Below, piece by piece: positions 12,169-61,318 of a stretch of 64,000 bases of DNA. Numbering within the stretch: the stretch's first letter is position 1; the number at the start of each line of letters is the position of its first letter. The notes beneath the pieces are model-generated. The model did not search any database and was not told the DNA's origin. It was given only the letters and a program-made list of their open reading frames with translations. The stretch spans positions 1 to 64,000 of the forward strand of contig JACQSY010000009.1 in assembly GCA_016211085.1 (NCBI GenBank), written 5' to 3'. Source of the DNA: Acidobacteriota bacterium (GTDB taxonomy: Bacteria; Acidobacteriota; UBA6911; RPQK01; JACQSY01). The position numbers were made by a program, and so were the translations under genes.

Positions 12169-12386
12169 AAAGGTTGAGGTGTAGGTTGCGCTAGATCCCA
12201 TCTCTGAAATGCCCTCGAATGGAACCTGAAACCGCTGGGGGCGATGGTTGAATTGGGCGGACCAGTCGCCCACTGGTGAAAGCGCAGCTGGTTTACTGCC
12301 CTGGACACTGGGCAGAGTTCACATGGGACGAGTTTCCCCGGCCGAATGCCGAAAACAGGAGATCGCAGTACGAAGCGAGAGAAGAA

Positions 12387-14096
12387 ATGAATGTTTCCGT
12401 TGATCCAATTCTTCTGTCGGTTTTGTGTCGTCGATTTAAATCCATCACAGAAGAGATGGGACTGGCGCTGCTAAGAACATCCCGTTCTCCCATTCTGAGC
12501 GAAGCTCGCGATTTTGTGACCGGTTTATACGACAAGAATGGCGGAATGCTCGAGCAGACTGAATATATCCCTGTCCTGGCGTTTGCGCTGGAACCGGCGT
12601 GCAAGGCCATTGTCAGCTATTTCAAGGACGAAATTTTTCCTGGAGATGTGATTCTGCACAACGACGTTTTTACCGGCGGTAATCAGCTGGCCGACGTGGC
12701 TCTGTTCAAGCCGATATTCTTCCAAGGGGAATTGGTTGCCTGGGCTGCCGCCAAAGGTCATCAGGCCGACATTGGAGGTGCGGTTGCAGGATCCTACAAT
12801 CCCGGTGCTCGTGAAATATGGCAGGAGGGCTTGAGGATCACCCCCGTAAAAATCTACGAAAAAGGTAAGCTCCGTTCCGATGTGTGGGACTTGATCTTTG
12901 CCAACGTGCGGCTGCAGATCGTGCAAGACGACATCCAGGCCCAGATTGGAAGCTGTACCGTGGGAGAACGGCGTCTTCTTGAAGTGCTGACGAGGTACGG
13001 GAAGCAGGAGGTATTGGCCCATATTGGCGCGCTTTACGACGCCACCGAGTCTCAGATGCGCCGCGAAATTTCGGCGATCCCTGATGGGACCTATCAAGGT
13101 GAAAGCTACGCTTTCTATGATGCGATAAGAGACGAAAGCCGCATGCGAATCGTCGTGAGCGTGGAAAAAAAGGGTGACGAAATTCGTTTTGACTATACGG
13201 GAACAGATCCGCAAACACCCGGTTTCGTCAACGCGCCTCTGAGCGCCACGCTGTCCGGATTGCTGTTGACATTCCTGATGCTGGTCGATCCTGATATCCC
13301 ACACAATGCAGGCCTGACTCGCCCCATACACGTGCATGTGCCGGAAGGCTGTTTCTTAAATGCTCGCTTTCCCGCAGCAACCACTTTTGGGAACAGTCTC
13401 ACCGGACCGCATTCAGACGCCTTGTTCCGTGCTTTAAGCCAAGCCCTTCCGGAACGCGTGACCGCCGGCTGGAATCGGATGCTTTCGTTTAGCATGGTTG
13501 GCCAGGATCCGCGCTATAACCGCCGTTTCGTGGACATTCTTTTCCTTTCTCAGAAAGGCGGTTCAGGAGCAACCTACGGCGTCGACGGCTATGATCACAT
13601 CGGGCTGATTAACTGTGCCGGCGGCATTTTGGCCCAGGATTACGAAATGCTGGAATTGCAAACACCAAATTTTTTGATTCGGCACGAGTATTGGCCTGAC
13701 TCGGCAGGCTCGGGCACATGGCGCGGTGGTATGGGCGTGGTCACAGAGCTGGAGCTGGGAGGTGAAGAAAATCTGGGAATCGTCTTTGGAGATGGGACTC
13801 ATTCGGAAGCTCGCGCCTTTGGACTTTTTGGCGGAGGATCCGGGTCCTGTAACCGTCTTGAGCTCGAATATCCCGACGGTCGCCTGATTCTTCCCCGGAC
13901 TAAAGACAAACTGGAAGGGATCCCTAAGGGAACGATCCTCCGGCAGTGGGCTGGGGGTGGGGGAGGATATGGAGAGCCGCGCTTGCGTCCGATGGAAGAA
14001 ATCCTCAATGATCTGCGCGAAGGGCTTCTGTCATCGGAGAAAGCGAGGACCGATTACGCAGTAGAAATCTCTGCAGAGGAGCGCGGCCGGCGGTGA
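12387..14096 (+). CDS. Hydantoinase B / 5-oxoprolinase beta-type subunit
   Basis: ATG 12387 (after GAGAGAAG) gives 569 residues; the open frame extends 37 codons upstream without family similarity. HyuB-type landmarks are DPILLSVLCRRF at the start, FVTGLYDKNG, HNDVFTGGNQLADV, AAKGHQADIGG, RPIHVHVPEGCFLN and the glycine-rich GGGGGYGEPR at the end. It pairs with the next gene (HyuA), overlapping its start by four bases (GTGA), so the two are coupled. Such pairs drive ATP-dependent opening of hydantoin, oxoproline or lactam rings, or carboxylate ketones; sequence alone does not choose. The next gene after HyuA is a CoA-transferase, suggesting that the product enters CoA metabolism. Confidence 0.88.
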   Translation: MNVSVDPILLSVLCRRFKSITEEMGLALLRTSRSPILSEARDFVTGLYDKNGGMLEQTEYIPVLAFALEPACKAIVSYFKDEIFPGDVILHNDVFTGGNQLADVALFKPIFFQGELVAWAAAKGHQADIGGAVAGSYNPGAREIWQEGLRITPVKIYEKGKLRSDVWDLIFANVRLQIVQDDIQAQIGSCTVGERRLLEVLTRYGKQEVLAHIGALYDATESQMRREISAIPDGTYQGESYAFYDAIRDESRMRIVVSVEKKGDEIRFDYTGTDPQTPGFVNAPLSATLSGLLLTFLMLVDPDIPHNAGLTRPIHVHVPEGCFLNARFPAATTFGNSLTGPHSDALFRALSQALPERVTAGWNRMLSFSMVGQDPRYNRRFVDILFLSQKGGSGATYGVDGYDHIGLINCAGGILAQDYEMLELQTPNFLIRHEYWPDSAGSGTWRGGMGVVTELELGGEENLGIVFGDGTHSEARAFGLFGGGSGSCNRLELEYPDGRLILPRTKDKLEGIPKGTILRQWAGGGGGYGEPRLRPMEEILNDLREGLLSSEKARTDYAVEISAEERGRR

Positions 14097-16219
14097 GATG
14101 GCGTGCGGGAATTGACGTTGGCGGCACTTTTACTGATTTCCTGCTGGTGGATGAATCGGGAGAATCGCATATCCATAAGACGCTCACCACTCCTGAAGAT
14201 CCTTCGATCGGACTCCTCAACGGACTTCGCGACATCGCCGCTGAAAAAGGTTGGACGCTCCAGCAGTTTGCGGGACGGCTCGAGCTGATTGTTCATGGAA
14301 CAACCGTGGCCACCAATGCCGTCCTCACCCATCAAGGTGCCCCTACCGGGCTACTGACCACTGAGGGATTTCGAGACGCATTGCAGATGCGGCGGGGAGT
14401 GCGTGAATCGCAATACGACAACCGCTTTACCGCTCCCCAGGCACTCGTGCCGCGTCGGTTGCGCCTTACTGCGCGTGAGCGTCTGGACTACAATGGGGCC
14501 GAGCGAACTCCTCTAAACCGCGATGACGTAATCAAAGCGGCCTCTGCTTTCAGGCAGGCTGGGGTGGAGGCGGTAGCCATTTGCTTCATGCACTCCCACG
14601 CCAACAACGCGCACGAATGGAAAGCAGCGGAAATTCTGAGGAAAGAGCTGCCCGGACTTTATCTCTCCGTGTCATCAGAACTGTTCCCGCAGATCCGTTT
14701 TTACGAGCGAACCAGTACTGCCGTACTCGACGCTTATATTGGACCTTTGGTCCGAACTTATCTCGGCAGCCTTCAGGCGCAATTGCACTCGCTCGGTTTT
14801 CGCGGTGTGCTTTTGATTATGCAATCCAATGGAGGGGTCGCCAGTGCTTCCGTCGCCATGCGCGCACCGGTGACTACTTTGCTCTCGGGCCCTGCGGCGG
14901 GGCCTGCTATAGGGCTTACCTACATGGCCCCGTGCGGGCTGAAGCATTGCATCACCGTCGACATGGGCGGCACCAGTTTTGATGCTGCCCTCATGGTGGG
15001 TGCACAGCCCCAGCTGGTGACCAATGGCCGGATCGGCGGGTATCAGATTGCGCTTCCCATGCTGGACATCAGGACCATCGGCGCCGGCGGCGGCAGTGTG
15101 GGCTGGGTGGATTCGGCTGGATTCTTGCGGATGGGACCCATGAGCGCAGGGGCGCTCCCTGGACCCGCCTGCTACGGCCGCGGCGGCATTCAACCTACCT
15201 GTACTGACGCGGATCTCGTTCTTGGCTATTTGAATGCTGACTATTTCCTGGGCGGACGAATCAAACTGCAGACACAGCTGGCACGCGAGGCCATTCAGGA
15301 GCACATTGCGCGCAAACTGAAGTTGTCCGTTGAAGAGGCCGCAGCCGGCATGTTTACCGTCATCAATAACAACATGGTGGACGGTATTCGCGAAGTTTCC
15401 ATTCAGCGCGGATACGATCCGAGAGATTTTCCACTGGTGGTAGCCGGAGGCGCCGGGCCGATCCACGCCGCCGTCATTGCAAAAGAGCTGGAAATTCCGC
15501 TGGTGGTGGTCCCCAGGGCCTCATCGATTTTTTGCGCCGCAGGAATGCTTTTTTCTGATCTGAGTCACGATCTGGTTCGGAGTTTCAGCGTTCCTTTTTC
15601 TCAGTTGGATTGCGAGGAGCTGTACCGTGTGTGTCAGTCGCTGCAACAAGAAGCCGGCATGATTCTTGAACACGAGCGAGTTCCTCCTGCAGAACGGTGT
15701 TATTTTTTTTCCGCAGACGTGCGTTGCGTGGGACAGCATCACGAAGTAAGTGTACCCATGAGGTTGAAATCCTGTGAGACCGACCTGAATGAGCTGTCGC
15801 AGAGATTTCATCAGCTTCACGATCATGTCTATGGCTACTCCGTCCCCGGGGCTTCCCTCGAGCTGGTATCGATACGGCTTCGCGCCGTCGGCACGACGCA
15901 AAAACCTTCCCTGGCTGCGCCAGCGGGGCATCACAAGGATATCTCCCAGGCTTTGCGGGGAAGGCGCCGGGCCTACATCCCTGAAACCAAGTGTTTTGAG
16001 CAAGTGCCTGTTTATGCGGGAGAATTGATCGGCTGCGACGCCCGCCTTCGAGGCCCCGCGCTGATCGAGCAAGTGACTACCACTCTGTTCGTGCCTCCTG
16101 GTTTTCACATGATCTGCGACGCACTGGGGAGCTTCACATTAAGCGCTGAAGGGCGAAAAGTGGAGGATCTTATTTCACGTTTTTCAACACGGCCTGGGAG
16201 TTCACAGGAAACAGTCTGA
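14093..16219 (+). CDS. Hydantoinase A / 5-oxoprolinase alpha-type subunit
   Basis: The GTG start at 14093 overlaps the stop of the B subunit, and no better in-frame start exists. The 708-residue protein has the ASKHA-type N-terminal ATP-binding motif GIDVGGTFTDF, then VHGTTVATNAVL, the second-domain LLSGPAAGPAIG, VDMGGTSFDAAL, GAGGGSVGWVD and VVAGGAGPIHA. These match HyuA of the hydantoinase/oxoprolinase/acetophenone-carboxylase superfamily, and the length is normal. ATP hydrolysis on this subunit would activate the substrate. Acetone-carboxylase-type gamma subunits are absent, so a carboxylase is less likely but not excluded. Confidence 0.88.
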   Translation: MRWRAGIDVGGTFTDFLLVDESGESHIHKTLTTPEDPSIGLLNGLRDIAAEKGWTLQQFAGRLELIVHGTTVATNAVLTHQGAPTGLLTTEGFRDALQMRRGVRESQYDNRFTAPQALVPRRLRLTARERLDYNGAERTPLNRDDVIKAASAFRQAGVEAVAICFMHSHANNAHEWKAAEILRKELPGLYLSVSSELFPQIRFYERTSTAVLDAYIGPLVRTYLGSLQAQLHSLGFRGVLLIMQSNGGVASASVAMRAPVTTLLSGPAAGPAIGLTYMAPCGLKHCITVDMGGTSFDAALMVGAQPQLVTNGRIGGYQIALPMLDIRTIGAGGGSVGWVDSAGFLRMGPMSAGALPGPACYGRGGIQPTCTDADLVLGYLNADYFLGGRIKLQTQLAREAIQEHIARKLKLSVEEAAAGMFTVINNNMVDGIREVSIQRGYDPRDFPLVVAGGAGPIHAAVIAKELEIPLVVVPRASSIFCAAGMLFSDLSHDLVRSFSVPFSQLDCEELYRVCQSLQQEAGMILEHERVPPAERCYFFSADVRCVGQHHEVSVPMRLKSCETDLNELSQRFHQLHDHVYGYSVPGASLELVSIRLRAVGTTQKPSLAAPAGHHKDISQALRGRRRAYIPETKCFEQVPVYAGELIGCDARLRGPALIEQVTTTLFVPPGFHMICDALGSFTLSAEGRKVEDLISRFSTRPGSSQETV

Positions 16220-16239
16220 AGCAGGCGAGGACGAAAACA

Positions 16240-17388
16240 ATGTCCGGACCCTTAGAAGGATTAAGAGTACTCGATTTCACCTGGTTTCTGGCCGGGCCCT
16301 ACGCCACGATGGTCCTCGCTGATCTGGGAGCTGACGTGGTAAAGGTTGAAGCGCCCGGGACGGGTGATCCCACGCGAAAAGTGGCTCCCTTTTGCGGCGA
16401 CCTCAGCAGCTATTTCCTAAGTGTAAATCGCGGCAAGAGGAGCATCTGTCTGGACCTGCGACGTCCCGAGGACCGCAGGGCCGCGCTGAGACTGGCCGAA
16501 AAGGCTGATGTGTTGGTCGAAAACTTCACACCGGGACGTATGGCTGAATGGGGTTTCGATTATTCGTCTGTTTCAACCAAAAACCCGCGGCTAATCTACG
16601 CCTCCTGTTCCGGTTTTGGACAGGACGGACCCCGCTCGCGTGAGCCTGCCTTTGACGGAATCATACAGGCGCTTGCCGGAACCATGAGCATTACTGGTCA
16701 TCCCGGTAGCGAACCGGTGCGGGTTGGTTTTTCCGTTGCGGACGTAGGCGCGGCGCTTTACCTGACGGTAGGAATCTTGGCGGCTTTGCAAGCGCGTCAT
16801 GTCACCGGCATGGGGCAATACCTCGAGGTCAGCTTGCTGGATGCACAGGTTTCCATGCTGGAAAACGCTTTTAGCCGTTACTTCGCTACCGGAGAGATCC
16901 CCCAGCCATCAGGGTCTCGCCACCCGCAGGTGGCGCCCTTTCAAGCTTTTCCAACCCGCGACGGTTACCTGGTGGTTTCAGCCGGCACGCAAGAGCAATG
17001 GGAGTTGCTTTGCGATGCCCTTCACAGAAGTGATTTGAAAAAGGACAACCGCTTTGCCGATTTCGTTGCCCGCCAAGTCCACGTGAGCGACCTGGAGAAA
17101 GAACTTTTTCCGATTTTTCGCGCTGCTTCTACCAGCGATTGGTTGCAGTTACTCCCCAAGCTTGGAATTCCTTGTGCGCCAATCCAGAATATTGCCGAGG
17201 CAGCCGCCGACCCGCAGGTACTGGCGCGCAACATGATTGTCGAATTGGAAGATCCGTTGGCAGGTAAGGTGCGGATCGTTAACTCGCCCTTGCGTTTTTC
17301 GCAAACCGCCGTCAACGCCAGCCGCAGCGCCCCTCGCCTTGGAAGCTCTAAAAAGGAGGTTCTTGACGAGTGGCTCTCGGAAAATTGA
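16240..17388 (+). CDS. Class III (CaiB/BaiF) CoA-transferase
   Basis: The 382-residue protein opens with the family hallmark PLEGLRVLDFTWFLAGPYATM and continues with DLGADVVKVEAPGTGD, VNRGKRSICLDLRR and NPRLIYASCSGFGQDGP. The region FSVADVGAALY holds the Asp that forms the CoA-anhydride intermediate in this family. It moves CoA between carboxylic acids. It starts 20 bases after HyuA and is probably in the same transcript. A second family member lies at 53493-54716. Length is slightly under the usual 390-410 residues. Confidence 0.88.
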   Translation: MSGPLEGLRVLDFTWFLAGPYATMVLADLGADVVKVEAPGTGDPTRKVAPFCGDLSSYFLSVNRGKRSICLDLRRPEDRRAALRLAEKADVLVENFTPGRMAEWGFDYSSVSTKNPRLIYASCSGFGQDGPRSREPAFDGIIQALAGTMSITGHPGSEPVRVGFSVADVGAALYLTVGILAALQARHVTGMGQYLEVSLLDAQVSMLENAFSRYFATGEIPQPSGSRHPQVAPFQAFPTRDGYLVVSAGTQEQWELLCDALHRSDLKKDNRFADFVARQVHVSDLEKELFPIFRAASTSDWLQLLPKLGIPCAPIQNIAEAAADPQVLARNMIVELEDPLAGKVRIVNSPLRFSQTAVNASRSAPRLGSSKKEVLDEWLSEN

Positions 17389-17400
17389 TGTGGACAAAAG

Positions 17401-17553
17401 ATCGGAGGCGCGACTGGCAAGGAGCGCTCCCTGATGCGATGAAGATGAAGCGCTTACTCTGCTGGCGCTGCGTGCGCGCCTCGGATTATAAGACGGGCCG
17501 TCTCATCCAAGAGCACGAATTAATCGGAGGCGCGACTGGCAAGGAGCGCTCCC
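17401..17553. repeat. Perfect 31-base direct repeat in the catabolic operon
   Basis: The sequence beginning ATCGGAGGCGCGACTGGCAA is identical over 31 bases at 17401-17431 and 17523-17553, a period of 122. Weaker similarity continues for about 20 bases (ATGAAG...GCGC). The copies sit between the CoA-transferase and LLM oxidoreductase genes, in DNA without a credible reading frame. The duplicated unit looks like a small insertion or tandem duplication that splits the operon. Confidence 0.85.
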
Positions 17554-17598
17554 GAGCCATGAAGTGGAGCGCAACAGTACCGTGGCGTCCATAAGTGA

Positions 17599-18663
17599 AT
17601 GGGTGTTAAATGTGAGAACGGATACATGGGCTTCATAAAAGACATTGTGAATTCGAACGGTTCCTGGGGTGTGACGCTTCAGGGTCTTGAGCCTCCCCAG
17701 GTTTTTTGCGAACAGGTGAGAGGTATCGAGCATGCCGGCTATTCACATCTGTGGATTACTGATTCTTCCCTCCACGCCCGCGGTGCTTACGAATACCTGA
17801 CGCTGGCCGCTCTCAACAGCCACAGAATTCTTCTGGGAACCTGCACCACCCACCCTTTTACACGCCATCCCGCAGTCACGGCGAATTCCATCGCTACGCT
17901 GCATGAAATCTCCAATGGGCGAGCCGTACTCGGCGTCGGGTCCGGCGATCGTCCTCATCGCGAACTGGGATTTGGGCCCGCCGCTCCGGAAGTGGTTCGA
18001 GAAATGATTACAGTGTGCCGTCGCCTTCTTGCCGGTGAGCGGATAAGCTTTGAGGGGCAAAGCTTCAAGCTGAACCAGGCTGAATTACATTACTCCTATC
18101 ATCCCCAAGTTCCCATTTACATCGCTTGCAGCGGTCCGCGAATGTTGACACTGGCCGGCGAAGTGGCTGATGGCGTTATTATTCACTGTGGTCTGTTCCC
18201 AGAAGCTTTGGACTTTGCGCTTGAGAAGGTTGAAAACGGGGCGAAAAAGGCAGGAAGAAATCTAAAGGATCTCGACCTGTGGGTGATGGTCTGTGGATCG
18301 CTCTCCGCGGATCGCTCGCAAGCTTTGGAGGGATCGCGGGTCATGGCTGCCTGGTTTGCGCAAACGGCGCCCCACTGTTGTAAGATTGCAGGACTGGACC
18401 CGGGGCTGATTCAAAAAATTCAGATGGCTTACGGTGGCGCTGAGTTTCACCAGGCTCGGGAGGCTGCTTCCCTGGTTCCGGATGAAATGATCGAGCTCTT
18501 CACTTTGGGGGCGATACCTTCAGAAGCCAGGAGAAGAATTGAAAGGCTGAAAAAGCACGGGGTGCGGAATTTTAATTTCATGCCAATAGGGCCTGAGCGT
18601 ACCCGCTCGTTCCAGCTTTTTGCCGAACACGTCATGCAACCCTTATCAAGAGAAAACCCATGA
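17599..18663 (+). CDS. LLM-class (luciferase-like, probably F420-dependent) oxidoreductase
   Basis: The 354-residue product is a TIM-barrel flavin/F420 enzyme of the bacterial luciferase family: GVTLQGLEP near the N-terminus, AGYSHLWITDS, LGTCTTHPFTRHP, the diagnostic GRAVLGVGSGD, and VPIYIACSGPRMLTLAGEVADGVI. The last two segments resemble the F420-dependent methylene-tetrahydromethanopterin reductase branch. The start may be ATG 17599 or ATG 17626; the latter gives a more typical N-terminus. The next gene starts inside its stop codon (ATGA), so the two are coupled. The substrate is unknown; the cofactor is inferred from family resemblance. Confidence 0.82.
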   Translation: MGVKCENGYMGFIKDIVNSNGSWGVTLQGLEPPQVFCEQVRGIEHAGYSHLWITDSSLHARGAYEYLTLAALNSHRILLGTCTTHPFTRHPAVTANSIATLHEISNGRAVLGVGSGDRPHRELGFGPAAPEVVREMITVCRRLLAGERISFEGQSFKLNQAELHYSYHPQVPIYIACSGPRMLTLAGEVADGVIIHCGLFPEALDFALEKVENGAKKAGRNLKDLDLWVMVCGSLSADRSQALEGSRVMAAWFAQTAPHCCKIAGLDPGLIQKIQMAYGGAEFHQAREAASLVPDEMIELFTLGAIPSEARRRIERLKKHGVRNFNFMPIGPERTRSFQLFAEHVMQPLSRENP

Positions 18664-19151
18664 ATCTTTCCGGTGGTGGCATGTCTCAGAAAACGGTGTC
18701 CCATACACTCCGCGTAAATGGCTCCACCCACGTGTTGGAATTGCGCCCCGCGGAACGATTGATTGATGTTTTACGAGACCGGTTGGGGTTAATTGGAACC
18801 AAGGAGGGCTGCCGGATGGGCGAATGCGGTTCTTGCACTGTGCTGGTCGGCGGTCGGCCCATGCTCTCGTGCCTCATCCTGGCCCTGCGGGTAACGGATG
18901 CTGTAGAGACCATCGAAGGCCTGGCCGCAGAATCCCGCCCGCTGCGCGAGGCCTTTGCCGATGCCGGAGCTTTCCAGTGTGGGTTTTGCACCCCTGGTCA
19001 AATTGTCCGTGCGGTAGCGTTGCTTAGAGAAGGGTTGCCGTTGGATGAGCACGGCCTGAGACGGGAGATGTCAGGAAACATCTGCCGGTGCACCGGCTAT
19101 ATGGGGATCATTGCGGCTTTACGCCGTATCCAGGCTCTTAAAATCGGGTGA
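18660..19151 (+). CDS. Orphan CoxS-type [2Fe-2S] subunit of a molybdenum hydroxylase
   Basis: The 163-residue protein carries both clusters of the xanthine-dehydrogenase/CO-dehydrogenase small subunit. A plant-ferredoxin-type cluster is bound by EGCRMGECGSCTVLVGG plus LSC, and the all-helical domain uses FQCGFCTPGQ with CRCTGYMGI. Its ATG overlaps the stop of the LLM gene by four bases (an internal ATG 18681 is also possible), so it belongs to that operon. Such subunits pass electrons from the Mo-cofactor subunit to FAD. No CoxL or CoxM partner lies in the window, and the next gene is convergent and overlaps its 3' end by 14 bases, so it is truly orphaned here. Confidence 0.88.
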   Translation: MNLSGGGMSQKTVSHTLRVNGSTHVLELRPAERLIDVLRDRLGLIGTKEGCRMGECGSCTVLVGGRPMLSCLILALRVTDAVETIEGLAAESRPLREAFADAGAFQCGFCTPGQIVRAVALLREGLPLDEHGLRREMSGNICRCTGYMGIIAALRRIQALKIG

Positions 19152-22105: not shown

Positions 22106-23911
22106 TCAGCCGGTCTTGTGGCACAGCTCACAGTTCTGAACCTGTCGCAGCCGGTCAATCCGGTGAGGCGGCCCTCCATGGGAGGACACCTCGGAGTGGC
22201 ATTGGACGCAGTTGTAATTGCGCAGGAAAACCAACCGATGGACAAGTCGAAAGTGCTCGTAACCGCGTGCTGTGCTCTTAAGGTCTTCGGCAACGGTGTG
22301 ACAGGAAACGCAGTTCTCCGAATCGACAGCGCTTTCCAGAGCTTCCGGCGCCGGAGGGGTTGGATTGGCGGAGAGCAGCCGGGGTTCTCTGTGCAGCGAT
22401 TCAACACTGCCCCGCAGGTCTTCAACTGCCTTGGCCCCCGCCACCCGTCCCATCAGCAGCGAAGGGCCCAGAAAGGTTCCCTCCAGTGCTGCCACGCCGT
22501 TGATGCCGCCGAAACCCGCCACCTCCCCTGCCGCGTACAGTCCGGGGATGACATTGTTGTTGGAGTCGACAACCCGGGAATACTGATCCGTCCGAATGCC
22601 ACCCATACTTTTCCGGGCCAGTGGAAAACCTTGAAAGGCATAAAACGGCGGTTTCGCAATGACAACCGGCGGTGTTGCACCTTGAGGAACACGATGGTTC
22701 CTGAACCTGTCAAAGTCTTCATCGGCGCCGGAGTCCACCATTTGATTGTAGCGGGCGACAGTCTGCTGAAGCGCCTGGGCGGGAAGCCCGATGCGCAATG
22801 CGAGTTCCTCAAGGGTGTCGGCCTTGACCAGAGCACGGGACTTCTCTTCCTCGCTCATCCAGTTCCAGCCAAACACAGACAGGTCGGACCGACCGGGTTC
22901 ATCAAACACGTTCCAATAAGTGGTGCCAGGCTGTTTGAGAAGAATCTTGAGCCGTTCTCCCTCAGCGGAATCCTCGTTTAAGAACCGTTGTCCCGACTGA
23001 TTGACCCAGATCCCGCGGGTGTTGAAGGTCCTCAGGCCGCGCTTCCCGGTCAGATCACGTGGGTCTTTCATTCCACTGGAGTAATTCCACATGTGATCCA
23101 TGCGGTGCAATGATCCGCCCGCCGCCTTCGCCATGACCAGGCCGGAACCCAGTGAATTGGGACCGGACCCTGCGAGGATTTCCCGAGGGACTGTTTCGCC
23201 CGCGGGCCAGTTGCTCTTCACCAGGTCCAAGTTGCTCTGGAATCCTCCCGTGGCCAGAATGACCGCGCTGGCCTTCAGTTCCGAGAGCTCTCCGTTTCGG
23301 GCGTTGCGAACCCGCACTCCTTGGATGCGTCCTTCTGAGATGAGCAATTCCACTCCCTCCGTGTTGAAAAGAAATTCCACGTTGGGATGTGCGAGGGCGG
23401 CTCGGTAAATGGGCGAAACCAAGCCAAAACCGCCTCCTTTTGCCTGGTGAAAACGGGGACGAGAATTTCCGGGGAGCCGGATAGGGTCATAGAAGGGATC
23501 GTTAAAGCTAACGCCCAGACGAAGCAGCCAATCATGAATCTCTTTTCGATTGCTCTTCACGTAGTAGCGAACCCAGTCAGGATCCGGAGACTTGCCCCAT
23601 TCAAAAAAATCCTTTGTCAAGATTTCCTCTGTATCAACCACTCCCATCCGATCCTGGTTGGGCGTACCCGTTAGAAGAACCCCACCACCTGAAACTATGG
23701 CATGGCCGCCGAAGACCGACCAAAGGTCTATGACCAGAACGCTCGCCCCATGTTGCGCTGTCTCGAGCGCAGCAGCCAGTCCGGCAATCCCCGCTCCGAC
23801 CACAATGACATCGGGATCTCGAGGCTGGCTCAACAAAACGCCCGCTCCCGGTGCAAGCGAAGATAGTAGGACCCCGATTAAAATCTTTTTTGGAAATGTG
23901 ACTCGGTACAT
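22106..23911 (-). CDS. Secreted flavocytochrome c: fumarate-reductase-type flavoprotein with a C-terminal tri-haem tail
   Basis: The 601-residue protein starts with a signal peptide (ILIGVLLSSLAPGAGVLLS). The FAD Rossmann motif VIVVGAGIAGLAAALE and the fumarate-reductase/KsdD-type FAD-binding fold follow, with GGFGLVSPIYRAA, VILATGGFQSN, MGGIRTD and the closing GLYAAGEVAGFGGINGVAALEG. The last ~70 residues hold three CxxCH haem sites: 534-538, 568-572 and 594-598. Export to the periplasm is needed for haem attachment, which agrees with the signal peptide. Shewanella-type periplasmic fumarate reductases carry haems at the N-terminus, so this order is reversed. It probably reduces or oxidises an enoate or organic acid with electrons passed through the haems. 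No partner quinol oxidase is in the window. Confidence 0.88.
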   Translation of the reverse strand: MYRVTFPKKILIGVLLSSLAPGAGVLLSQPRDPDVIVVGAGIAGLAAALETAQHGASVLVIDLWSVFGGHAIVSGGGVLLTGTPNQDRMGVVDTEEILTKDFFEWGKSPDPDWVRYYVKSNRKEIHDWLLRLGVSFNDPFYDPIRLPGNSRPRFHQAKGGGFGLVSPIYRAALAHPNVEFLFNTEGVELLISEGRIQGVRVRNARNGELSELKASAVILATGGFQSNLDLVKSNWPAGETVPREILAGSGPNSLGSGLVMAKAAGGSLHRMDHMWNYSSGMKDPRDLTGKRGLRTFNTRGIWVNQSGQRFLNEDSAEGERLKILLKQPGTTYWNVFDEPGRSDLSVFGWNWMSEEEKSRALVKADTLEELALRIGLPAQALQQTVARYNQMVDSGADEDFDRFRNHRVPQGATPPVVIAKPPFYAFQGFPLARKSMGGIRTDQYSRVVDSNNNVIPGLYAAGEVAGFGGINGVAALEGTFLGPSLLMGRVAGAKAVEDLRGSVESLHREPRLLSANPTPPAPEALESAVDSENCVSCHTVAEDLKSTARGYEHFRLVHRLVFLRNYNCVQCHSEVSSHGGPPHRIDRLRQVQNCELCHKTG

Positions 23912-49622: not shown

Positions 49623-49723
49623 CTCGCCGGACTTTGGGCCCTGTTCTTCCAGCTCTTCCCAAGTTTTTCACGTCTGGACATAGCTGTCGCTTTTTCTTAT
49701 CATCCCTTCACCTTAATCCGGCC

Positions 49724-50428
49724 ATGTCCAGCAAAGTCATGATCTGTGCCGCAGCGCGTGAAATCAAAGACGGAGAAATGGTCTTCGTTGGAATGAGGTT
49801 GCCCCTGCTGGCCTTCATGCTGGCAAAAAAATTACACGCTCCCCGGGCCATAGGTCTGTTTGAAAACGGCGTGGTTCGCGACGCGCCGGCGCAGGAAATG
49901 CTTTACACCATGAGTGATGGTCCTAATCTGCACGGAGCCGTGTGTTGCACCACCCTTTTAGATGTCATGTCACTCATGCAGCAGGGAAGGGTCGCTCTCG
50001 GTTTTCTAGGGGCTGCCGAAGTGGATCAGTACGGAAATCTGAACTCAACCCAGGTCAGGCGGCCGGATGGGGGAGTGATCCGGCTTCCCGGCAGCGGGGG
50101 GGCTTGTGATATCGCATGTCTTTCCGGTCGCGTCGCGACCGTTATCCGTCACGAAAAACACCGCCTGGTACCCCGGGTTTCTTATATCACCTCTCCGGCG
50201 CCTCCGGGCGGTGTTTGCTTGATCACGGACAAGGCAGTGTTTCGCAGCCATGCCGCCACTGGAATTTTGAATTTGGTCAGCTGTCACCCCGGGGTAAGCT
50301 TTGAGGAGATTCAATCCGAAACCTCTTGGACCTTGAAGGATCCGCAGCGGGAAACACCCCCGCCTTCACCCCAGGAGATTAATATTCTTGAGCAAATCGA
50401 CCGTCAGGGATTTTGGGTCCAAAATTAA
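49724..50428 (+). CDS. CoA-transferase-family beta subunit (IpdB/GctB-like)
   Basis: ATG 49724 gives 234 residues of a class I CoA-transferase subunit. It has KVMICAAAREIKDGEMVFVGM, the catalytic-type motif F-E-N-G (residues 46-49), FLGAAEVDQYGNLNST and the GSGGACDIA loop. In true transferases the Glu of this motif carries the acyl or CoA group. In the actinobacterial IpdAB homologue the same fold acts as a hydrolase that opens a steroid ring. The alpha subunit follows directly. The position at the head of an aromatic/alicyclic degradation cluster favours a hydrolase role over plain CoA transfer, as inference. The frame extends upstream to 49634 without similarity. Confidence 0.85.
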   Translation: MSSKVMICAAAREIKDGEMVFVGMRLPLLAFMLAKKLHAPRAIGLFENGVVRDAPAQEMLYTMSDGPNLHGAVCCTTLLDVMSLMQQGRVALGFLGAAEVDQYGNLNSTQVRRPDGGVIRLPGSGGACDIACLSGRVATVIRHEKHRLVPRVSYITSPAPPGGVCLITDKAVFRSHAATGILNLVSCHPGVSFEEIQSETSWTLKDPQRETPPPSPQEINILEQIDRQGFWVQN

Positions 50429-50429
50429 C

Positions 50430-51335
50430 GTGAACAAGATCTGCTCGCTTGGTGACGCCGTGAGCGAGTTGGTCCATGATGGCTGCTCGCTGGCAATTTC
50501 TACCGATCTCGAGCAGCGTATCCCCTTTGCTGCAGCCCATGAAATCATCCGACAAAGAAAGAGGGAGCTCACCTTGATGGCTCCGATTTCCGACATGCTC
50601 GCCGACCAGATGATTGCGGGCGGGACCATTGCCAGAGTTCTCGCAGCCTGGGTGGGGAACGTCAGCGCAGGTTTGGGCCATAATTTTCGCCGGGCTGTTG
50701 AGAGTGGAATACCTCATCACGTGGAGATGGTGGACTACTCCAATTTCACTATGGCGCTGGCCCTGAAGGCAGGGGCTATGGGTGTTCCCTTCATCCCCAC
50801 CCGATCCACGCTGGGCAGTGATCTGTTACGCAGGAACCCGGGACTGGAGCCGCTGACGGATGCCCGCACCGGCGAAGAACTGGTGGCGGTCCGAGCCTTG
50901 CGTCCCGACGTAGCCATTGTTCATGTCCAGAGATCGGATGAGGATGGTAACTGCCATGTATGGGGTAACCTGGGTGTGACGCTGGAAGCAGTGCGTGCCA
51001 GCCGCCGGACTCTGGTGATTGCGGAGGAAGTTGTCAGCCGTCAGGTCATCGTTTCCGATCCCAACCGGACCCTCATTCCAGGCTTTCTGGTTCATGCGGT
51101 GGTGCACCAGCCGTGGGGGGCTCATCCCTCCCCGGTTCAAGGTTATTACAATCGAGACCACCGTTTCTTCTCCGACTATCACCATCAAACCCGCACCTGG
51201 GAAGGCACCAAGCAATGGCTAGGGGAATGGGTTTACCAGGTTGCGGATCGGGAAGAGTACCTGTGCCGCATTGATCGTGAGCCGCTGCTTCTGAAAAACC
51301 ACGCGCCGGCGGCTCCGGTAGACTATGGGTTCTAG
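50430..51335 (+). CDS. CoA-transferase-family alpha subunit (IpdA/GctA-like)
   Basis: GTG 50430 lies one base after the stop of the beta subunit and gives 301 residues beginning NKICSLGDAVSELVHDGCSLAIS, a typical alpha-subunit start. TTG 50388 would add 14 residues overlapping the beta gene. Later segments are ADQMIAGGTIARVLAAWVGN, MVDYSNFTMALALKAGAMG, PFIPTRSTLGSDLL and VAIVHVQRSDEDGNCHVWG, all expected for the family. It forms a heteromer with the beta subunit. Compared with acetate-type transferases it is long, like IpdA. A 220-base gap with a new promoter region follows. Confidence 0.85.
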   Translation: MNKICSLGDAVSELVHDGCSLAISTDLEQRIPFAAAHEIIRQRKRELTLMAPISDMLADQMIAGGTIARVLAAWVGNVSAGLGHNFRRAVESGIPHHVEMVDYSNFTMALALKAGAMGVPFIPTRSTLGSDLLRRNPGLEPLTDARTGEELVAVRALRPDVAIVHVQRSDEDGNCHVWGNLGVTLEAVRASRRTLVIAEEVVSRQVIVSDPNRTLIPGFLVHAVVHQPWGAHPSPVQGYYNRDHRFFSDYHHQTRTWEGTKQWLGEWVYQVADREEYLCRIDREPLLLKNHAPAAPVDYGF

Positions 51336-51446
51336 TGTCCTGTCCCAGGAATACGCTGAATGGTGCCGGTGGAGTCGCGAGCAAACTCCTTGACGCTTGT
51401 TGCCCACGTGGATTCCGATCGCCTCCTGACTGCTTGTCCTCGGCTC

Positions 51447-51503
51447 GCCAGCCCCCGCTGGCACTTGTTCATGACACGAGGCGTCAGCCAACTGATGGTT
51501 GAC
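51447..51503 (+). promoter_or_regulatory. Hairpin and operator-like palindrome upstream of the OYE gene
   Basis: GCCAGC (51447-51452) and GCTGGC (51457-51462) form a six-base hairpin after the CoA-transferase pair. GTCAGCCAACTGATGGTTGAC (51483-51503 shown in part as an imperfect palindrome with GTCA/TGAC ends) lies just before an AT-rich promoter-like stretch (51521-51550). It could bind the MarR-type regulator encoded at 61319; the evidence is only position and symmetry. Confidence 0.35.
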
Positions 51504-51558
51504 CTGGGGCGTGTGAACTGATAATTAGTTTATACATAAATAATTTTGACTTAAACCA

Positions 51559-52917
51559 ATGACGCCGGACCTCACAACACCCATTGAGCAGCTGCATCCC
51601 AAAAAATCTCTGCTTTTTACGCCCATAACTATCAATCAGTTGACGCTGCAAAATCGGGTATGGCTGCCGGCAATGGTAACGTGGCTTGCCGGGGAAGCGG
51701 GATTCGTCAATGAGGAAGTAGAAAAGCGCTACCTTCGCTACGCCCTGGGTGAAATGGGCATGATTGTCCTGGAGGCTATTGGGATCCGCGACATTTCCAG
51801 CGGTCCTCTTCTCAGAATCAGCCACAGCCGTTTTGTTCCGGGTTTAAGGGATCTGGCGCGGAAGATCCACGACACCAGCCCCAGCCGCGTAATTCCTCAA
51901 ATCATCGACTTTCTCCGAATCTCCACTCGCAATCCGCAGAAATATCTGGCGAGGCTGGAAGAGCAGGATCCGCAAAAGTACTCAGGTCTTTCCGAGAAAA
52001 GCGAAGACGAACTACAACGTATCCTGACGCCGCGGCAGTGGCACGAGTACAATTACGGCTATCGTCAACTTATCGAAGATCTTAGCCTTGAAGAGATCCG
52101 TTCTTTGCCGGGGCTTTTTGCGCAGGCGGCGGCCCGGGCACGTGAAGCGAGATTTGATGGCGTGGAGCTTCACTTTGCACACGCCTACACGGTTGCTTCG
52201 TTTCTATCACGCCGCAATTCGCGCCAGGATGATTATGGAGGCCAGAGCCTTGACAACCGGGCACGGCTGGCACTGGAGATCATCGAGGCCGTCAGGAGAG
52301 AAGTGGGCCGCGACTTCCTGGTGGGCTGCCGTTTTTTGGGTCGTGAGGACATAACGGGGGGCAGTGAGATCGAGGACGCGGCGTATTTCGCACAGGAGTT
52401 TGCCCGCGCCGGGCTGGATTATCTTTCGGTATCGCGCGGCGGAAAATTTGAAGACGCCAAACAACCCAAGATCGGCCAGGCCATCTATCCCTACACCGGT
52501 TATAGTGGCTCCATGTGTATGCCCAATTGGACATTTGCGGCAGCTTACAACCATCCTTATGCTTGTGCCATCAAGCAGGCACTGGCCTCCCATGGGTTCC
52601 GAACACCGGTAGTGACGTGCGGACGGATTCAAACTTTTCAGGTCGCTGAAAACATTTTGCGCTCTGGCGAGGCCGATCTGATCGGGATGGCCCGCCAACT
52701 GCTGGCGGACCCGGACTGGCCGAAAAAAGTTCGGGACGGGGTGGGCAGAATCGTCTACTGCGACTATCATAACGTCTGTGAAGCTCTTGACCGCAATCAT
52801 TTGCCCGTGCGTTGCAAGCTCTGGATGAACCACCCGCGAGGAACCATGCACCCGCCCCTGTACGACTACGGCAGCAGCAAGACCCAGCATCCGGTTCCTG
52901 ATTCCGGCCAAAGCTGA
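51559..52917 (+). CDS. Old Yellow Enzyme-type NADH:flavin oxidoreductase
   Basis: The 452-residue protein is an FMN TIM-barrel ene-reductase. It has LFTPITINQLTLQNRVWLPA at the start, GMIVLEAIGI, FDGVELHFAHAYTVASFLSR (catalytic His), NSRQDDYGGQSLDNRARLALEI, VTCGRIQ and DLIGMARQLLADPDW. A C-terminal segment has Cys residues (YCDYHNVCEALDRNHLPVRC), similar to the iron-sulfur-binding region of 2,4-dienoyl-CoA reductases, but the NAD-binding half of those enzymes is missing. It probably reduces an unsaturated or dearomatised acyl-CoA ring. In anaerobic-type 2-aminobenzoyl-CoA monooxygenase/reductase such a domain is fused to the oxygenase; here it is separate. Confidence 0.85.
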   Translation: MTPDLTTPIEQLHPKKSLLFTPITINQLTLQNRVWLPAMVTWLAGEAGFVNEEVEKRYLRYALGEMGMIVLEAIGIRDISSGPLLRISHSRFVPGLRDLARKIHDTSPSRVIPQIIDFLRISTRNPQKYLARLEEQDPQKYSGLSEKSEDELQRILTPRQWHEYNYGYRQLIEDLSLEEIRSLPGLFAQAAARAREARFDGVELHFAHAYTVASFLSRRNSRQDDYGGQSLDNRARLALEIIEAVRREVGRDFLVGCRFLGREDITGGSEIEDAAYFAQEFARAGLDYLSVSRGGKFEDAKQPKIGQAIYPYTGYSGSMCMPNWTFAAAYNHPYACAIKQALASHGFRTPVVTCGRIQTFQVAENILRSGEADLIGMARQLLADPDWPKKVRDGVGRIVYCDYHNVCEALDRNHLPVRCKLWMNHPRGTMHPPLYDYGSSKTQHPVPDSGQS

Positions 52918-53052
52918 GCACAGGCTCGAAAGCGGTCCTTAAGTGGCACTCTTATGCTCCGGGACACCTAGCCACTAGCGCTTTCTATCATTGGTTGCGT
53001 CAGAGTATTTAAGATCAATGAGCTCGTTTAAAGCATTTTCCAAAGGAGAGTT

Positions 53053-53466
53053 ATGGCTCAACATCCGCATTTAAAACTCGTCAACCCGGAAAGCCTCATG
53101 CCCCCTATCGGTTTTGCCCACGCCTGTGTGGCCCGGGGAAGCCGGATTGTGTTTCTGGCTGGGCAAGTTTCTTCAGATAAAGAGGGCAACATCCTGCACC
53201 GTAATGACCTGGTTAAGCAGTTCGATCTCGCCTTAGAAAACATGCGCATCTGCATCGAGGAGGCAGGCGGCACCATGGACCAGATCACCAAGCTGACTTA
53301 CTACGTGATCAATGTTGCCGACTATCTGGCCAAGAGAAAGGAACTGGGTGTGGTTTACCGCAAATACTTCGGGCGGCATTTCCCAGCCATGACGCTGGTG
53401 GGAGTCACGGGTTTGTATAATGACGGCGCCCTTATCGAAATTGACGGCTTTGCTGTCTTGGAATAA
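53053..53466 (+). CDS. RidA-family enamine/imine deaminase
   Basis: ATG 53053 after AAAGGAGAG gives a 137-residue Rid-family protein. It has ARGSRIVFLAGQVSSDKEGN, FDLALENMRICIEEAGGTMDQI, LTYYVINVADYLAKRKE, and the closing PAMTLVGVTGLYNDGALIEIDGFAVL. In canonical RidA the Arg that holds the substrate carboxylate lies in a PARxxV motif. Here the motif is PAMTLV, with Met at that position, so it belongs to another Rid subfamily. Its place in the cluster suggests hydrolysis of an enamine or imine formed from an amino-substituted ring. Confidence 0.85.
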   Translation: MAQHPHLKLVNPESLMPPIGFAHACVARGSRIVFLAGQVSSDKEGNILHRNDLVKQFDLALENMRICIEEAGGTMDQITKLTYYVINVADYLAKRKELGVVYRKYFGRHFPAMTLVGVTGLYNDGALIEIDGFAVLE

Positions 53467-53492
53467 TTTTCTTTTTTTAACGGCAGGATGCT

Positions 53493-54716
53493 ATGAACAA
53501 CAATACCGTGCGGCCTCTGCAAGGCATTCGGGTCATCGGATTCGAACAGCAAGTGGCTGGCCCTTACTGCACGATGATGCTGGCGCACCAAGGTGCCGAC
53601 GTCATCAAGATTGAAAGACCGGGAATCGGCGATTCCAGCCGGGAAATGGCCCCCATAGTCAAGAATTCCAAAGGGGAGAGCAACAGCGGCTACTTTCTTC
53701 GTTTTAACCTGAACAAACGGAGCATGACTCTGGACATTACCGTCCCCGCCGGACGGGAGATCTTCAAAGAGCTTGCAGCCATTTCCGACGTGGTTGTCGA
53801 AAATTCCCGTCCCGGCACCATGAAAAAATACGGTGTGGACTATGAAGCTTTGAAAAAAATCAATCCGCGCTTGATCTATGCCGCCATCAGCGGCTTTGGA
53901 ACGATGCCGCAATATCAGGGTGAGTACAGTGAACGGCCGGCCTACGACATCATCTCGCAGGCCATGGGCGGCTTGATGCACACTTGCGGCTTCGAAGATC
54001 GGCCTCCTTCGTGGCTGGGAATCGCACTGGGTGATATTTACTCCGGCGTCATGGCTGCCTACGGGGTGACCCTTGCTTTGATTCAGCGCGAAAAGACTGG
54101 TGAGGGTCAGTACCTGGACATCTCGATGTATGACAACATGGCCTCCTTATCGGAACGCTACCTTACAGCCTATTCTTTGACGGGAACGGTCATGCGCCGG
54201 GGCAGGGAGAAGTTTATAGCCCCATGGGGTGCCTTCCCCTGCAAGGACGGCTACGTCGCTTTGATTATTGCAACCGAACGAGATTGGGCTAAGTTCTGCG
54301 AAACCATTGGACGTCCTGATCTGATCAAGGACCCCTGCTGTGTTTCGGGTCCGGTCAGGGCCGAAAACATGGACCATTACATCGGCCCCATCATCGAAAA
54401 GTGGATGAGCGACAAAACCAAAGAGGCGATCTGTTCCGCTTTTCTTGCCAATGGTCTCCCTGCGGGTCCGGTGCAGGATGCGTCCGAGGTTTTCAACTGC
54501 AGACATTTGTCCCAAAGGGACCTTTTGGTCGAGACGGACGATCCGATATTAGGCAAAATCAAACTGGTAGGGTCCCCCTTGAAACTCTCTGGTTCGCCCG
54601 GCCAGTTGAATCGGCCCGTGCCGCTGCTGGGGCAGCACACGGACGAGGTCCTGAACTCCGTTCTGGGATACTCTTCAGATCGTATCGCCGCTCTACGGAA
54701 GGAGAAGGTTATTTGA
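53493..54716 (+). CDS. Class III (CaiB/BaiF) CoA-transferase
   Basis: The 407-residue protein opens with RPLQGIRVIGFEQQVAGPYC and continues with MLAHQGADVIKIERPGIGDSSR, NLNKRSMTLDITVP, NPRLIYAAISGFGTMPQYQG and the catalytic Asp region GIALGDIYSGVMAAYGV. The length is typical. It moves CoA onto a carboxylic acid, perhaps methyl- or benzyl-succinate-like. It is followed by the mutase gene, whose TTG start overlaps its stop codon, so a CoA-thioester made here could feed the mutase. AGGATG spacing gives a weak ribosome-binding site. Confidence 0.9.
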   Translation: MNNNTVRPLQGIRVIGFEQQVAGPYCTMMLAHQGADVIKIERPGIGDSSREMAPIVKNSKGESNSGYFLRFNLNKRSMTLDITVPAGREIFKELAAISDVVVENSRPGTMKKYGVDYEALKKINPRLIYAAISGFGTMPQYQGEYSERPAYDIISQAMGGLMHTCGFEDRPPSWLGIALGDIYSGVMAAYGVTLALIQREKTGEGQYLDISMYDNMASLSERYLTAYSLTGTVMRRGREKFIAPWGAFPCKDGYVALIIATERDWAKFCETIGRPDLIKDPCCVSGPVRAENMDHYIGPIIEKWMSDKTKEAICSAFLANGLPAGPVQDASEVFNCRHLSQRDLLVETDDPILGKIKLVGSPLKLSGSPGQLNRPVPLLGQHTDEVLNSVLGYSSDRIAALRKEKVI

Positions 54717-56428
54717 GCAGGAAAACAGAACCCGGCACCAAGAGCGCTGCTCCAGCCTCTCCGCCTGAAGCGTCCCTCGAACAGAAATGGCGGGAGTGGG
54801 AGCGGTATTTGGCGGAACTTGAGAGGGTAAAGTCTCCCAGGAAAAGCAGCTTTGCCACGCGTTCGGGCATCCCCCTGAAACCGGTCTACACACCGCTGGA
54901 TTGGAATTCTGAAAGCTATCCAGAGAGCCTGGGGCTGCCCGGTGACTTTCCGTTTACGCGTGGGGCTGAGGCGGGAATGTACCGGCATCAGCTCTGGACC
55001 ATGGGTCAATATGCGGGGTTTGGCTCGGCCGAGGACAGCAACCGCCGATTCAAGTACCTCGTTTCCAAAGGAGCCACGGGCTTCTCGGTTGCGCTGGATC
55101 TTCCCACACAGATCGGATACGACTCTGATCATCCCCGCTCTGCAGGCGAGGTGGGTAAGGTGGGTGTGGCCTTGAATTCCCTGGCGGATATGGAAGCCTT
55201 GCTCGACGGCGTGCCTCTGGAAAAGGTGCGGCAGATACGCACCACCGCCAATGCGATCGGGAACGTATTGCTGGCGTTCTTTGTGTGTGCCGCCGAGAAC
55301 AAGGGGATCTCACCGCGGAGCTTCAACGTTCTTCTTCAAAACGATCCCTTAAAGGAGTACGTGGGGCGCGGAACGTATATCTATCCACCGCGTTTTGCCG
55401 TGAGGGTGACTGCGGACGTGATGGAGTATTGTGCCCGGCACCTTCCCAACTGGACCTCAGTCAATGTTTCCGGCTATCACATCCAGGAGTCGGGGGCCAC
55501 GGCTCCGCAAGAAATCGCTTTTACCTTTGCGCACGCTCGGGAGTATTTGGATGAAGTGCTTCGCCGCGGCATTGATGTTGATGAGGTGGCTCCAACCATC
55601 TGGGTATTTTTTTCCAGTCAGATGGATTTAATGGAAGAGGTGGCCAAGTTCCGGGCTGCCCGCCGGCTGTGGGCGCGTATGATGCGCGATGAGTACGGCG
55701 CGCGCCGTAGGGAATCTATGACTCTCCGTTTTCTTACCTTCACGGCAGGCAGCGCGTTAACGGCGCAACAGCCTTTGAACAACGTGATCCGTGTGACCAT
55801 CCAGGCGCTGGCTGCCGTCTTGGCTGGGACTCAAACGCTTCACGCCTGTTCCTACGACGAGGCGCTGGCGCTTCCCACCGAGGAGGCGGTAACGCTTGCC
55901 ATCCGCACCCAACAGATTATTGCGCACGAAACCGGCCTGGCTGACGTAGTGGACCCCTTGGGAGGCTCGTATTATCTGGAGTCGCTGACGAACGAACTCG
56001 AGAAGCAGGCGCGGTGTCTCATGGATCGAGTCGCCGCCATGGGGGGCGCGGTTGCCGCCATCGAGAAAGGATACATCAAAAGGGAGATCAGCCAGTCGGC
56101 CTGGCTGCAACAAAAGCAAATAGAAAGTAAGGAACGACTCGTGATCGGGGTGAACGACCAGGTGACGGACCCCATTCAAAAAATGGCGATTTTCAGTAAC
56201 GATCCGGCAACCGAACGGCGTATATGTGAAAATCTGAAAAAACTGCGCCTCAGCCGGGACAACGAGCGGGTTTCACAAGCTTTGGGGCAGCTCACAAAAG
56301 ACGCTCGAGAGGGCGTAAACGTCGTGCCTGCCACCCTTGAGGCCGTGCGCAGTTATGCCACCGTCGGTGAAATCTGTGGGACTCTGCGCGAGGTCTGGGG
56401 CGAGCATCGAGACTCCCCCGTTTTTTAA
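54713..56428 (+). CDS. B12-dependent acyl-CoA mutase, large (catalytic) subunit, methylmalonyl-CoA mutase-like
   Basis: TTG 54713, just after AAGGAGAAGG and overlapping the preceding stop (TTGA), gives 571 residues; the longer frame from 54401 is a shadow. Substrate-channel motifs are FTRGAEAGMYRHQLWTMGQY, FSVALDLPTQIGYDSDHP and SGYHIQESGATAPQE, with LTAQQPLNNVIR and EETGLADVVDPLGGSYY-type residues. Tyr90 and Arg219 align with the carboxylate-binding Tyr and Arg of methylmalonyl-CoA mutase, whereas isobutyryl-type mutases have Gln at the Arg position. This favours a dicarboxylic substrate. The protein lacks the C-terminal B12-binding domain (DxHxxG), and no such subunit or chaperone (MeaB) is in the window. 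Confidence 0.88.
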   Translation: MSRKTEPGTKSAAPASPPEASLEQKWREWERYLAELERVKSPRKSSFATRSGIPLKPVYTPLDWNSESYPESLGLPGDFPFTRGAEAGMYRHQLWTMGQYAGFGSAEDSNRRFKYLVSKGATGFSVALDLPTQIGYDSDHPRSAGEVGKVGVALNSLADMEALLDGVPLEKVRQIRTTANAIGNVLLAFFVCAAENKGISPRSFNVLLQNDPLKEYVGRGTYIYPPRFAVRVTADVMEYCARHLPNWTSVNVSGYHIQESGATAPQEIAFTFAHAREYLDEVLRRGIDVDEVAPTIWVFFSSQMDLMEEVAKFRAARRLWARMMRDEYGARRRESMTLRFLTFTAGSALTAQQPLNNVIRVTIQALAAVLAGTQTLHACSYDEALALPTEEAVTLAIRTQQIIAHETGLADVVDPLGGSYYLESLTNELEKQARCLMDRVAAMGGAVAAIEKGYIKREISQSAWLQQKQIESKERLVIGVNDQVTDPIQKMAIFSNDPATERRICENLKKLRLSRDNERVSQALGQLTKDAREGVNVVPATLEAVRSYATVGEICGTLREVWGEHRDSPVF

Positions 56429-56449
56429 CTTCAGCAATGTGGAGCTTTG

Positions 56450-57235
56450 ATGGCGTATACCGACATTTTCTACACGGTTGAGAACGGAGTGGCGAGAATG
56501 ACCATCAATCGCCCGGAGAAACACAATGCTTTCCGGCTTCAGACGCTGGCAGAGTTGACCGACGCGTTTGAAAAAGCCGAGGTGGATGGAGGTGTAGGAG
56601 TTGCAGTGTTGACCGGCGCCGGAGAGAAAGCTTTTTGCTCAGGCGGGGACGTGGGTATGGAGCAAGCTTTTACCCCCGCAAGCGGTCGGGCGCTGGTGCG
56701 GGCGGACATGAAGCTGGCAGCAGCTATGCGTGCCTTTGGGAAGCCAATCATCGCGCGGGTGAACGGCTGGTGCATTGGAAGTGGAAATTGCCTGAATTTG
56801 CTGTGCGACCTTTCTATTGCGGCCGAAGATGCTCGCCTGGGGCAGATTGGGCCGCAGGTCGGCAGTATTCCTACGTGGATCTCCACTCAAGTACTCCCGT
56901 ACCTGGTAGGACCCAAGAAAGCACGTGAGATTGTGTTCTTGTGCCGCCAGTACACGGCCAGGGAAGCCGAAGCGATGGGTTGGATCAACAAAGCGGTTCC
57001 CAGAGACAAACTGGATGAGGAAGTCAATGCGTGGTGTCAACGTATTCTTGAGTTGAGCCCACAATCACTTCGCATCGCAAAGATGAACATGAACTATTTT
57101 GAGGACCTTACCTACCCTGCCCTGGTACATGGAATGGAGATGCTTGCGTTGACCTATGGCTCAGAGGAGGCCCTGGAGGGAATGAATGCTTTTCTTGAGA
57201 AGAGAAAAACGAATTTTGGTAGATTCAGGAAATAA
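56450..57235 (+). CDS. Crotonase of the BadI/MenB branch
   Basis: ATG 56450 after GGAG gives 261 residues (TTG 56447 is an alternative). The protein has MTINRPEKHNAFRLQTL, VAVLTGAGEKAFCSGGD (oxyanion hole), IIARVNGWCIGSGNCLNLLCDL and YLVGPKKAREIVFLCRQYTAREAEAMG. The ending is LEGMNAFLEKRKTNFGRFRK. These last blocks resemble 2-ketocyclohexanecarboxyl-CoA hydrolase (BadI), which opens an alicyclic ring, and naphthoate synthase (MenB), rather than ordinary enoyl-CoA hydratase. In this cluster ring hydrolysis is the likelier role. It is followed immediately by a thiolase gene. Confidence 0.85.
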   Translation: MAYTDIFYTVENGVARMTINRPEKHNAFRLQTLAELTDAFEKAEVDGGVGVAVLTGAGEKAFCSGGDVGMEQAFTPASGRALVRADMKLAAAMRAFGKPIIARVNGWCIGSGNCLNLLCDLSIAAEDARLGQIGPQVGSIPTWISTQVLPYLVGPKKAREIVFLCRQYTAREAEAMGWINKAVPRDKLDEEVNAWCQRILELSPQSLRIAKMNMNYFEDLTYPALVHGMEMLALTYGSEEALEGMNAFLEKRKTNFGRFRK

Positions 57236-57244
57236 GGAGGGACT

Positions 57245-58438: not shown

Positions 58439-58585
58439 CTCTCTCTTCTCCCCGATGGGGGTTGGATCGTGCCCCGTTTGCTCGCGGTTCAAAAAGGGGA
58501 GTTCTCGCTCCTATGAGATCGAGTAATCCGGAATACGACTTTCGGAGCTGGGATGCAGCCTTTTGAGATGTGATTCTAAGACCAC

Positions 58586-61300: not shown

Positions 61301-61318
61301 ACGATGATGTGAGGACGA

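Follow-up and report, generated by a model that had tools for sequence, protein, structure and literature searches.

A predicted C-terminal haem tail joined to an FAD_binding_2 enzyme marks a rare flavoprotein family related to the NF009472 clade

The textbook example of an FAD_binding_2 enzyme joined to a haem module is the flavocytochrome Fcc3, in which four haems are N-terminal. In other systems an FAD reductase is paired with a haem protein, as described for the methacrylate reductase Mrd/Mcc (PMC4427408) and the cardiac glycoside reductase Cgr1/Cgr2 (PMC5953540). Here we describe a gene in a 64,000-nucleotide stretch of an Acidobacteriota genome (contig JACQSY010000009.1; hereafter the window) whose product carries haem-binding motifs at the opposite end of the chain. 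On balance, we slightly favour the view that it is an exported, cytochrome-linked dehydrogenase, a flavocytochrome related to the NF009472/PRK12834 clade.

The open reading frame at positions 22106–23911 of the reverse strand is complete, with an ATG start and 601 amino acids before the stop codon, and has full-length homologues; it encodes an FAD enzyme, predicted to be exported, with a C-terminal tri-haem tail. Hydropathy indicates a basic N terminus followed by a hydrophobic leader of about 28 residues (23828–23911, boundary approximate) ahead of the Rossmann motif. The FAD_binding_2 catalytic domain spans residues 34–481 (22469–23812; Pfam E 2.3e-65), an assignment with which the AlphaFold model and the fold matches agree. 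The model has a mean pLDDT of 80.1, with values mostly above 90 in residues 34–500 and below 50 in the tail. Three CxxCH motifs, all on the reverse strand and within the last 68 residues, mark the putative haem c sites I (CVSCH, residues 534–538, 22298–22312), II (CVQCH, residues 568–572, 22196–22210) and III (CELCH, residues 594–598, 22118–22132). Every one of the six cysteines in the protein lies inside such a motif, and three CxxCH motifs arose in none of 100,000 shuffles of either the whole protein or its last 101 residues. The original prediction, a flavoprotein with a signal peptide, three CxxCH sites near the C terminus and a haem order the reverse of that in the N-terminal tetrahaem fumarate reductases, is borne out in this layout.

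When the tail was scanned alone, it matched Cytochrom_c3_2 with 26.3 bits (Pfam gathering score 25.0). Cytochrome_C7 was matched at E ≤0.01 by all 13 family tails, the window tail reaching 23.3 bits, under that family's cut-off of 24.8. The 13 family C termini were compared after exclusion of L014, which is cut by a contig end. Haem sites II and III and two histidines (H553 and H558 in the window protein) are invariant among them; site I is present in 10 of the 13, and a third histidine (H583) is kept in 11. Two members, L011 and L062, have neither haem I nor the third histidine, and L012 is without haem I only. In L012 (1489–1749), haem I has apparently been deleted, such that the first cysteine region is joined directly to the conserved WHFE motif. 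A count close to one extra histidine per haem suggests bis-His ligation, and the tail is most likely a bis-His, c7/c3-like module whose predicted CxxCH sites would be loaded with haem. Modelled alone with AlphaFold, the tail gave a pLDDT of 67.3, and a fold search with that model returned no significant match. A sequence profile of the tail found weak matches in the PDB, the best being 3ov0, a multihaem cytochrome c family protein (E 0.0008), with unrelated ubiquitin hydrolase chains also among them.

Within the same phylum, 11 other genomes hold 13 more copies with this layout; contig ends truncate two of these (L014 and L061), and one (L015) is a fragment. A protein search of the phylum was positive in 8 of 297 genomes, own genome included, and a profile search in a draw of 396 genomes from the phylum returned the same eight. 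The whole-class search was positive in 7 of 38 genomes (own included; one with a C-terminal fragment only), and in the class of another carrier (G125) 5 of 193 genomes were positive, three of them new. The family is rare and patchy within its own phylum. The window protein is 41–46% identical over its full length to the eight other rows of the family profile A1 (window protein plus eight others, 600 positions), all of which keep the layout, which argues that the architecture is no accident. Profile A1 was also searched outside the phylum, against 398 genomes around G396 (L005, Hellea) and 296 around G397 (L004, Amycolatopsis). At E 1e-70, seven genomes in each set matched; among the best three or four candidates scored per genome, none carried a haem tail, and the furthest alignment reached profile position 538 of 600. 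A plasmid match that apparently reached residue 574 was discarded, as its alignment extends beyond the 1,413 bases of the gene. One comparison protein, L053, carries a single CxxCH motif, at its N terminus. A search of the open-licence literature found no description of a haem-tailed protein of such layout; the haem-tailed family is small and little studied, with a conserved and rare architecture.

Where the N terminus is readable, in 12 family rows (the 10 rows of the tree set, L060 and L062), every protein has a leader of 28–46 residues with a hydrophobic stretch. By eye, two of the proteins (L008 and L060) appear lipoprotein-like, with a cysteine after the hydrophobic run. The seven NF009472-type rows start 5–19 residues before the Rossmann motif, by start codons assigned by script, and have neither a leader nor CxxCH motifs. 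This pattern suggests that export and the haem tail were gained together, and the leader points to a periplasmic location for the family protein.

The fold of the flavin domain is common to reductases and dehydrogenases. With VIA-align, the model is closest to urocanate reductase (Z 42.0; 437 aligned residues, 3.0 Å) and to Fcc3 types (Z of about 40), followed by Δ4-ketosteroid dehydrogenase (Δ4-KstD, Z 39.6), KstD (36.8) and cyclohexanone dehydrogenase (36.0); by Foldseek and VIA-align, the places after urocanate reductase and Fcc3 go to 4at0, 4c3x, 7p18 and 8am3. The top NCBIfam match is TIGR01813 flavocytochrome c (247 bits, under its cut-off of 285.45), and the KstD models NF009478 and NF005882 are also among the matches. 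Fold comparison, made on the predicted structure, does not separate the candidate functions. The first alternative, which we regard as unlikely, is a periplasmic respiratory reductase that acts on an enoate or another C=C acceptor through a different active site. A NapC/NrfH-like quinol dehydrogenase would feed electrons to the haems and these would feed FAD, the route used by Fcc3, whose haems sit at the opposite terminus. The closest folds, urocanate reductase and Fcc3, and the TIGR01813 match speak for this reading.

The active site speaks against it. We aligned 31 rows, including ten family rows, seven NF009472-type rows, L054, the Fcc3-like rows L052 and L053, and the KstD-type rows L036 and L039. 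In the columns of Fcc3 H365, R402, H504, H505 and R544, L052 and L053 retain H, R, H, H and R, indicating that the alignment behaves as it should. The ten family rows have Y; a variable residue (E, P, Y, A, V, S or D); R; K; and A or G. The corresponding residues are Y, T, R, K and A or S in the seven NF009472-type rows, and Y, G, R, K and A in L054. The column of Fcc3 R381 has R in five of the ten family rows and F, G or L in the rest, so no residue is kept there, and E378 is absent. What the family has instead is a signature, N149, W-x-Y277 and R433-K434, common to the ten family rows, the seven NF009472-type rows and L054, with Y in place of W in L011; by eye, L060–L062, which lie outside the 31-row alignment, have the same Arg-Lys and Tyr motifs. 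Tyr277 (23081–23083, reverse strand), in the column of Fcc3 His365, is invariant in the aligned family rows, and Arg433-Lys434 (22610–22615, reverse strand), in the columns of His504-His505, is invariant in the family and NF009472-type rows alike. These residues probably fill the roles held by others in fumarate reductases and ketosteroid dehydrogenases. By its residues, assignment of the protein as a fumarate or enoate reductase is not supported. The term 'fumarate-reductase-type' in the original prediction therefore holds for the fold, for which Fcc3 and urocanate reductase are the best Foldseek and VIA-align rows, but not for the active site; and the proposal of a periplasmic enoate reductase for anaerobic respiration, which had been tied to the catalytic residues, is countered by the loss of R402, H504 and R544 from the family. 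For a reductase with a different active site, it can be said that Arg433-Lys434 could bind an acid, and that Cgr2 (PMC5953540) is an example of a reductase without the usual residues.

The same alignment bears on a second alternative, which we consider improbable: a haem-fused desaturase of ketosteroids or cyclic ketones, with KstD or cyclohexanone dehydrogenase chemistry, in which cytochrome c would replace the quinone or dye acceptor. The KstD models among the NCBIfam matches and the fold ranking of 4at0, 4c3x, 7p18 and 8am3 favour it. PMC5348764 names Tyr318 and Tyr487 of KstD1, which we equated with Fcc3 columns 402 and 544 through the alignment with L036 and L039, both of which have Tyr in those columns. 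The family has variable residues in the first column and Ala or Gly in the second, such that neither Tyr is kept, and assignment as a KstD by residues is likewise not supported. Both known catalytic sets are lost from the family.

A tree was calculated from 519 columns with the haem tail removed, from a set that excluded L004 (which doubles L039) and L005 and L035 (both shortened at the chosen start). The family, the NF009472-type rows and L054 fall on one side of a branch with support of 100/100; within the tree, the NF009472-type rows group together (100/100), as do the haem-tailed rows (93/91) and the Fcc3 rows, with L054 and several other rows forming long branches. The KstD-like rows fall outside the 100/100 clade, a further point against the desaturase. 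Forcing the family together with Fcc3, a constraint group named after the first tree had been seen, costs 101.5 log-likelihood units and is rejected (p-AU 9e-48), which also weighs against the reductase. That the C-terminal haems mark a separate lineage, as had been proposed, is upheld by the placement of the haem-tailed rows on one side of the 93/91 branch, away from the Fcc3 type with its N-terminal haems. The lower support of this branch is a point against the reading that we favour. Against the NF009472 model itself (cut-off 476), the window protein scores 197.8 bits, under the cut-off, whereas L058 reaches 978 and L047 lies at the cut-off with 475; on these scores and the branching, the relation appears to be one of sisters and not of membership. 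To our knowledge, neither an activity nor a substrate has been reported for any member, the NF009472 name being an annotation, and the literature search, which drew on excerpts, met no reported activity for the clade.

Electron partners were sought in the carrier genomes. Cytochrom_C_asm is present in all eight carriers searched, with four matches above the cut-off in the own genome, so that the lack of cytochrome c maturation genes, raised beforehand as grounds for refutation, does not apply. COX1 was found in 9 of 11 carriers, including two strong matches in the own genome, which has genes for both cytochrome c assembly and a haem-copper oxidase; none was found in the other two of these 11 (G140 and G211). 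NapC/NirT-like matches occur in 8 of 11 carriers, the own genome's being partial (positions 5–97 of 174), which detracts from a quinol-fed reductase in that organism. The two carriers lacking a COX1 match, together with the NapC/NirT-like genes, make a reductive role possible.

The window gene stands alone, with a DinB-type polymerase gene about 0.8 kb downstream on the same strand and a Usp gene divergent upstream; no obvious partner was seen among the neighbouring genes for DinB-type polymerase, PfkB, Usp, SIMPL and zinc alcohol dehydrogenase. Relatives elsewhere are more informative. At locus L016, genes for the flavocytochrome, a dihaem cytochrome c and a PQQ alcohol dehydrogenase (TIGR03075, above cut-off) are consecutive on one strand. 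At L021, a PQQ-type dehydrogenase (367 bits to TIGR03075, under the cut-off of 480), an FMN-dependent dehydrogenase and the flavocytochrome share a strand. At the closely related loci L017 and L018, a TPR protein, the flavocytochrome and a TPP enzyme follow in order, with a cytochrome c next in L018. No oxidative partner directly adjoining the gene was seen in L019, L020, L022, L023, L024, L063, L064 or L065, where part of the open reading frames was scanned with Pfam. Oxidative neighbours are found in three or four of the 12 other contexts (L016–L024 and L063–L065) and are absent from the window. The electron partners allow both directions of flow; taken together with the neighbours, they lean to oxidation, and the informative neighbours count against the reductase.

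Several of these regions hold other features. The PQQ-type enzyme of L016 (4099–5691), which passes TIGR03075, also scores 543 bits to 'acido-empty-quinoprotein group A' (cut-off 650), and it may therefore not bind PQQ. The TPP enzyme of L018 (7497–9392), directly after the flavocytochrome, has an apparent twin-arginine leader (RRDF) and is possibly exported; its best NCBIfam models lie far below cut-off. In the window, a forward-strand run at 49634–63955 resembles a CoA-linked degradation cluster, with CoA-transferase subunits, an Oxidored_FMN enzyme, a family III CoA-transferase, a methylmalonyl-CoA-mutase-type protein, an enoyl-CoA hydratase, a thiolase, an amidohydrolase and an AMP-binding ligase (four genes named by Pfam, the rest by eye). 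Also by eye, 12276–19151 holds adjacent genes resembling hydantoinase B and A subunits, then a CoA-transferase and an LLM-type gene, and 18660–19151 a lone gene resembling a 2Fe-2S small subunit, with no large subunit adjoining.

In the cytochrome-linked dehydrogenase that we favour, a small organic substrate would give up two electrons to the FAD domain as a hydride to flavin N5, in a reaction probably catalysed by Tyr277 together with Arg433-Lys434. From there the electrons would travel singly along the tail, by way of at most three haems, to a cytochrome c in the periplasm, which would hand them on to an oxidase, giving an oxidative direction of flow. A flavin domain that serves as a general electron-transfer module with no defined small substrate, making the protein a periplasmic electron relay or buffer, would suit the lack of a conserved partner gene and the dispensable haem I, but it is very improbable given that the active-site signature is constant at 41–46% identity, which argues for a defined substrate. 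For the family at large we propose, tentatively and at somewhat less than even confidence, a group of dehydrogenases that act in the periplasm and are coupled to cytochromes, restricted wholly or almost wholly to one phylum (probably Acidobacteriota) and of single origin. A cytosolic NF009472-like flavoenzyme would have acquired both a signal for export and a tri-haem tail at its C terminus, with the catalytic set of Tyr277 and Arg433-Lys434, like neither that of the fumarate reductases nor that of the ketosteroid dehydrogenases, and would carry out periplasmic oxidations beside PQQ dehydrogenases.

Set against known systems, the window protein resembles Fcc3 and Ifc3 of Shewanella in combining an FAD_binding_2 domain and c-type haem sites, here recognized by motif, on one chain. 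Fcc3 has the same fold (Foldseek E 7e-43; 509 columns, 29% identity). In another alignment, the matched part of Fcc3 is its flavin part and begins at residue 117. Unlike Fcc3, the window protein has three haem sites at the C terminus, is without the equivalents of H365, R402, H504 and R544, and belongs to a separate clade. An FAD_binding_2 enzyme from a different branch has acquired a haem module at the other terminus, and the combination of FAD_binding_2 and haems is therefore no proof of a fumarate reductase. With KstD, the protein shares the fold but not the catalytic Tyr columns. In Mrd/Mcc and Cgr1/Cgr2, the haem protein forms a polypeptide of its own and serves reduction, whereas here it is fused at the C terminus. 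The closest likeness in signature (W-x-Y, R-K-x-(M/L)-G-G and LEGT) and in grouping (100/100) is to the NF009472/PRK12834 FAD-binding dehydrogenases, which differ in having neither leader nor CxxCH; next to them, the haem-tailed family offers single-chain, electrode- and cytochrome-friendly access to the chemistry of that clade.
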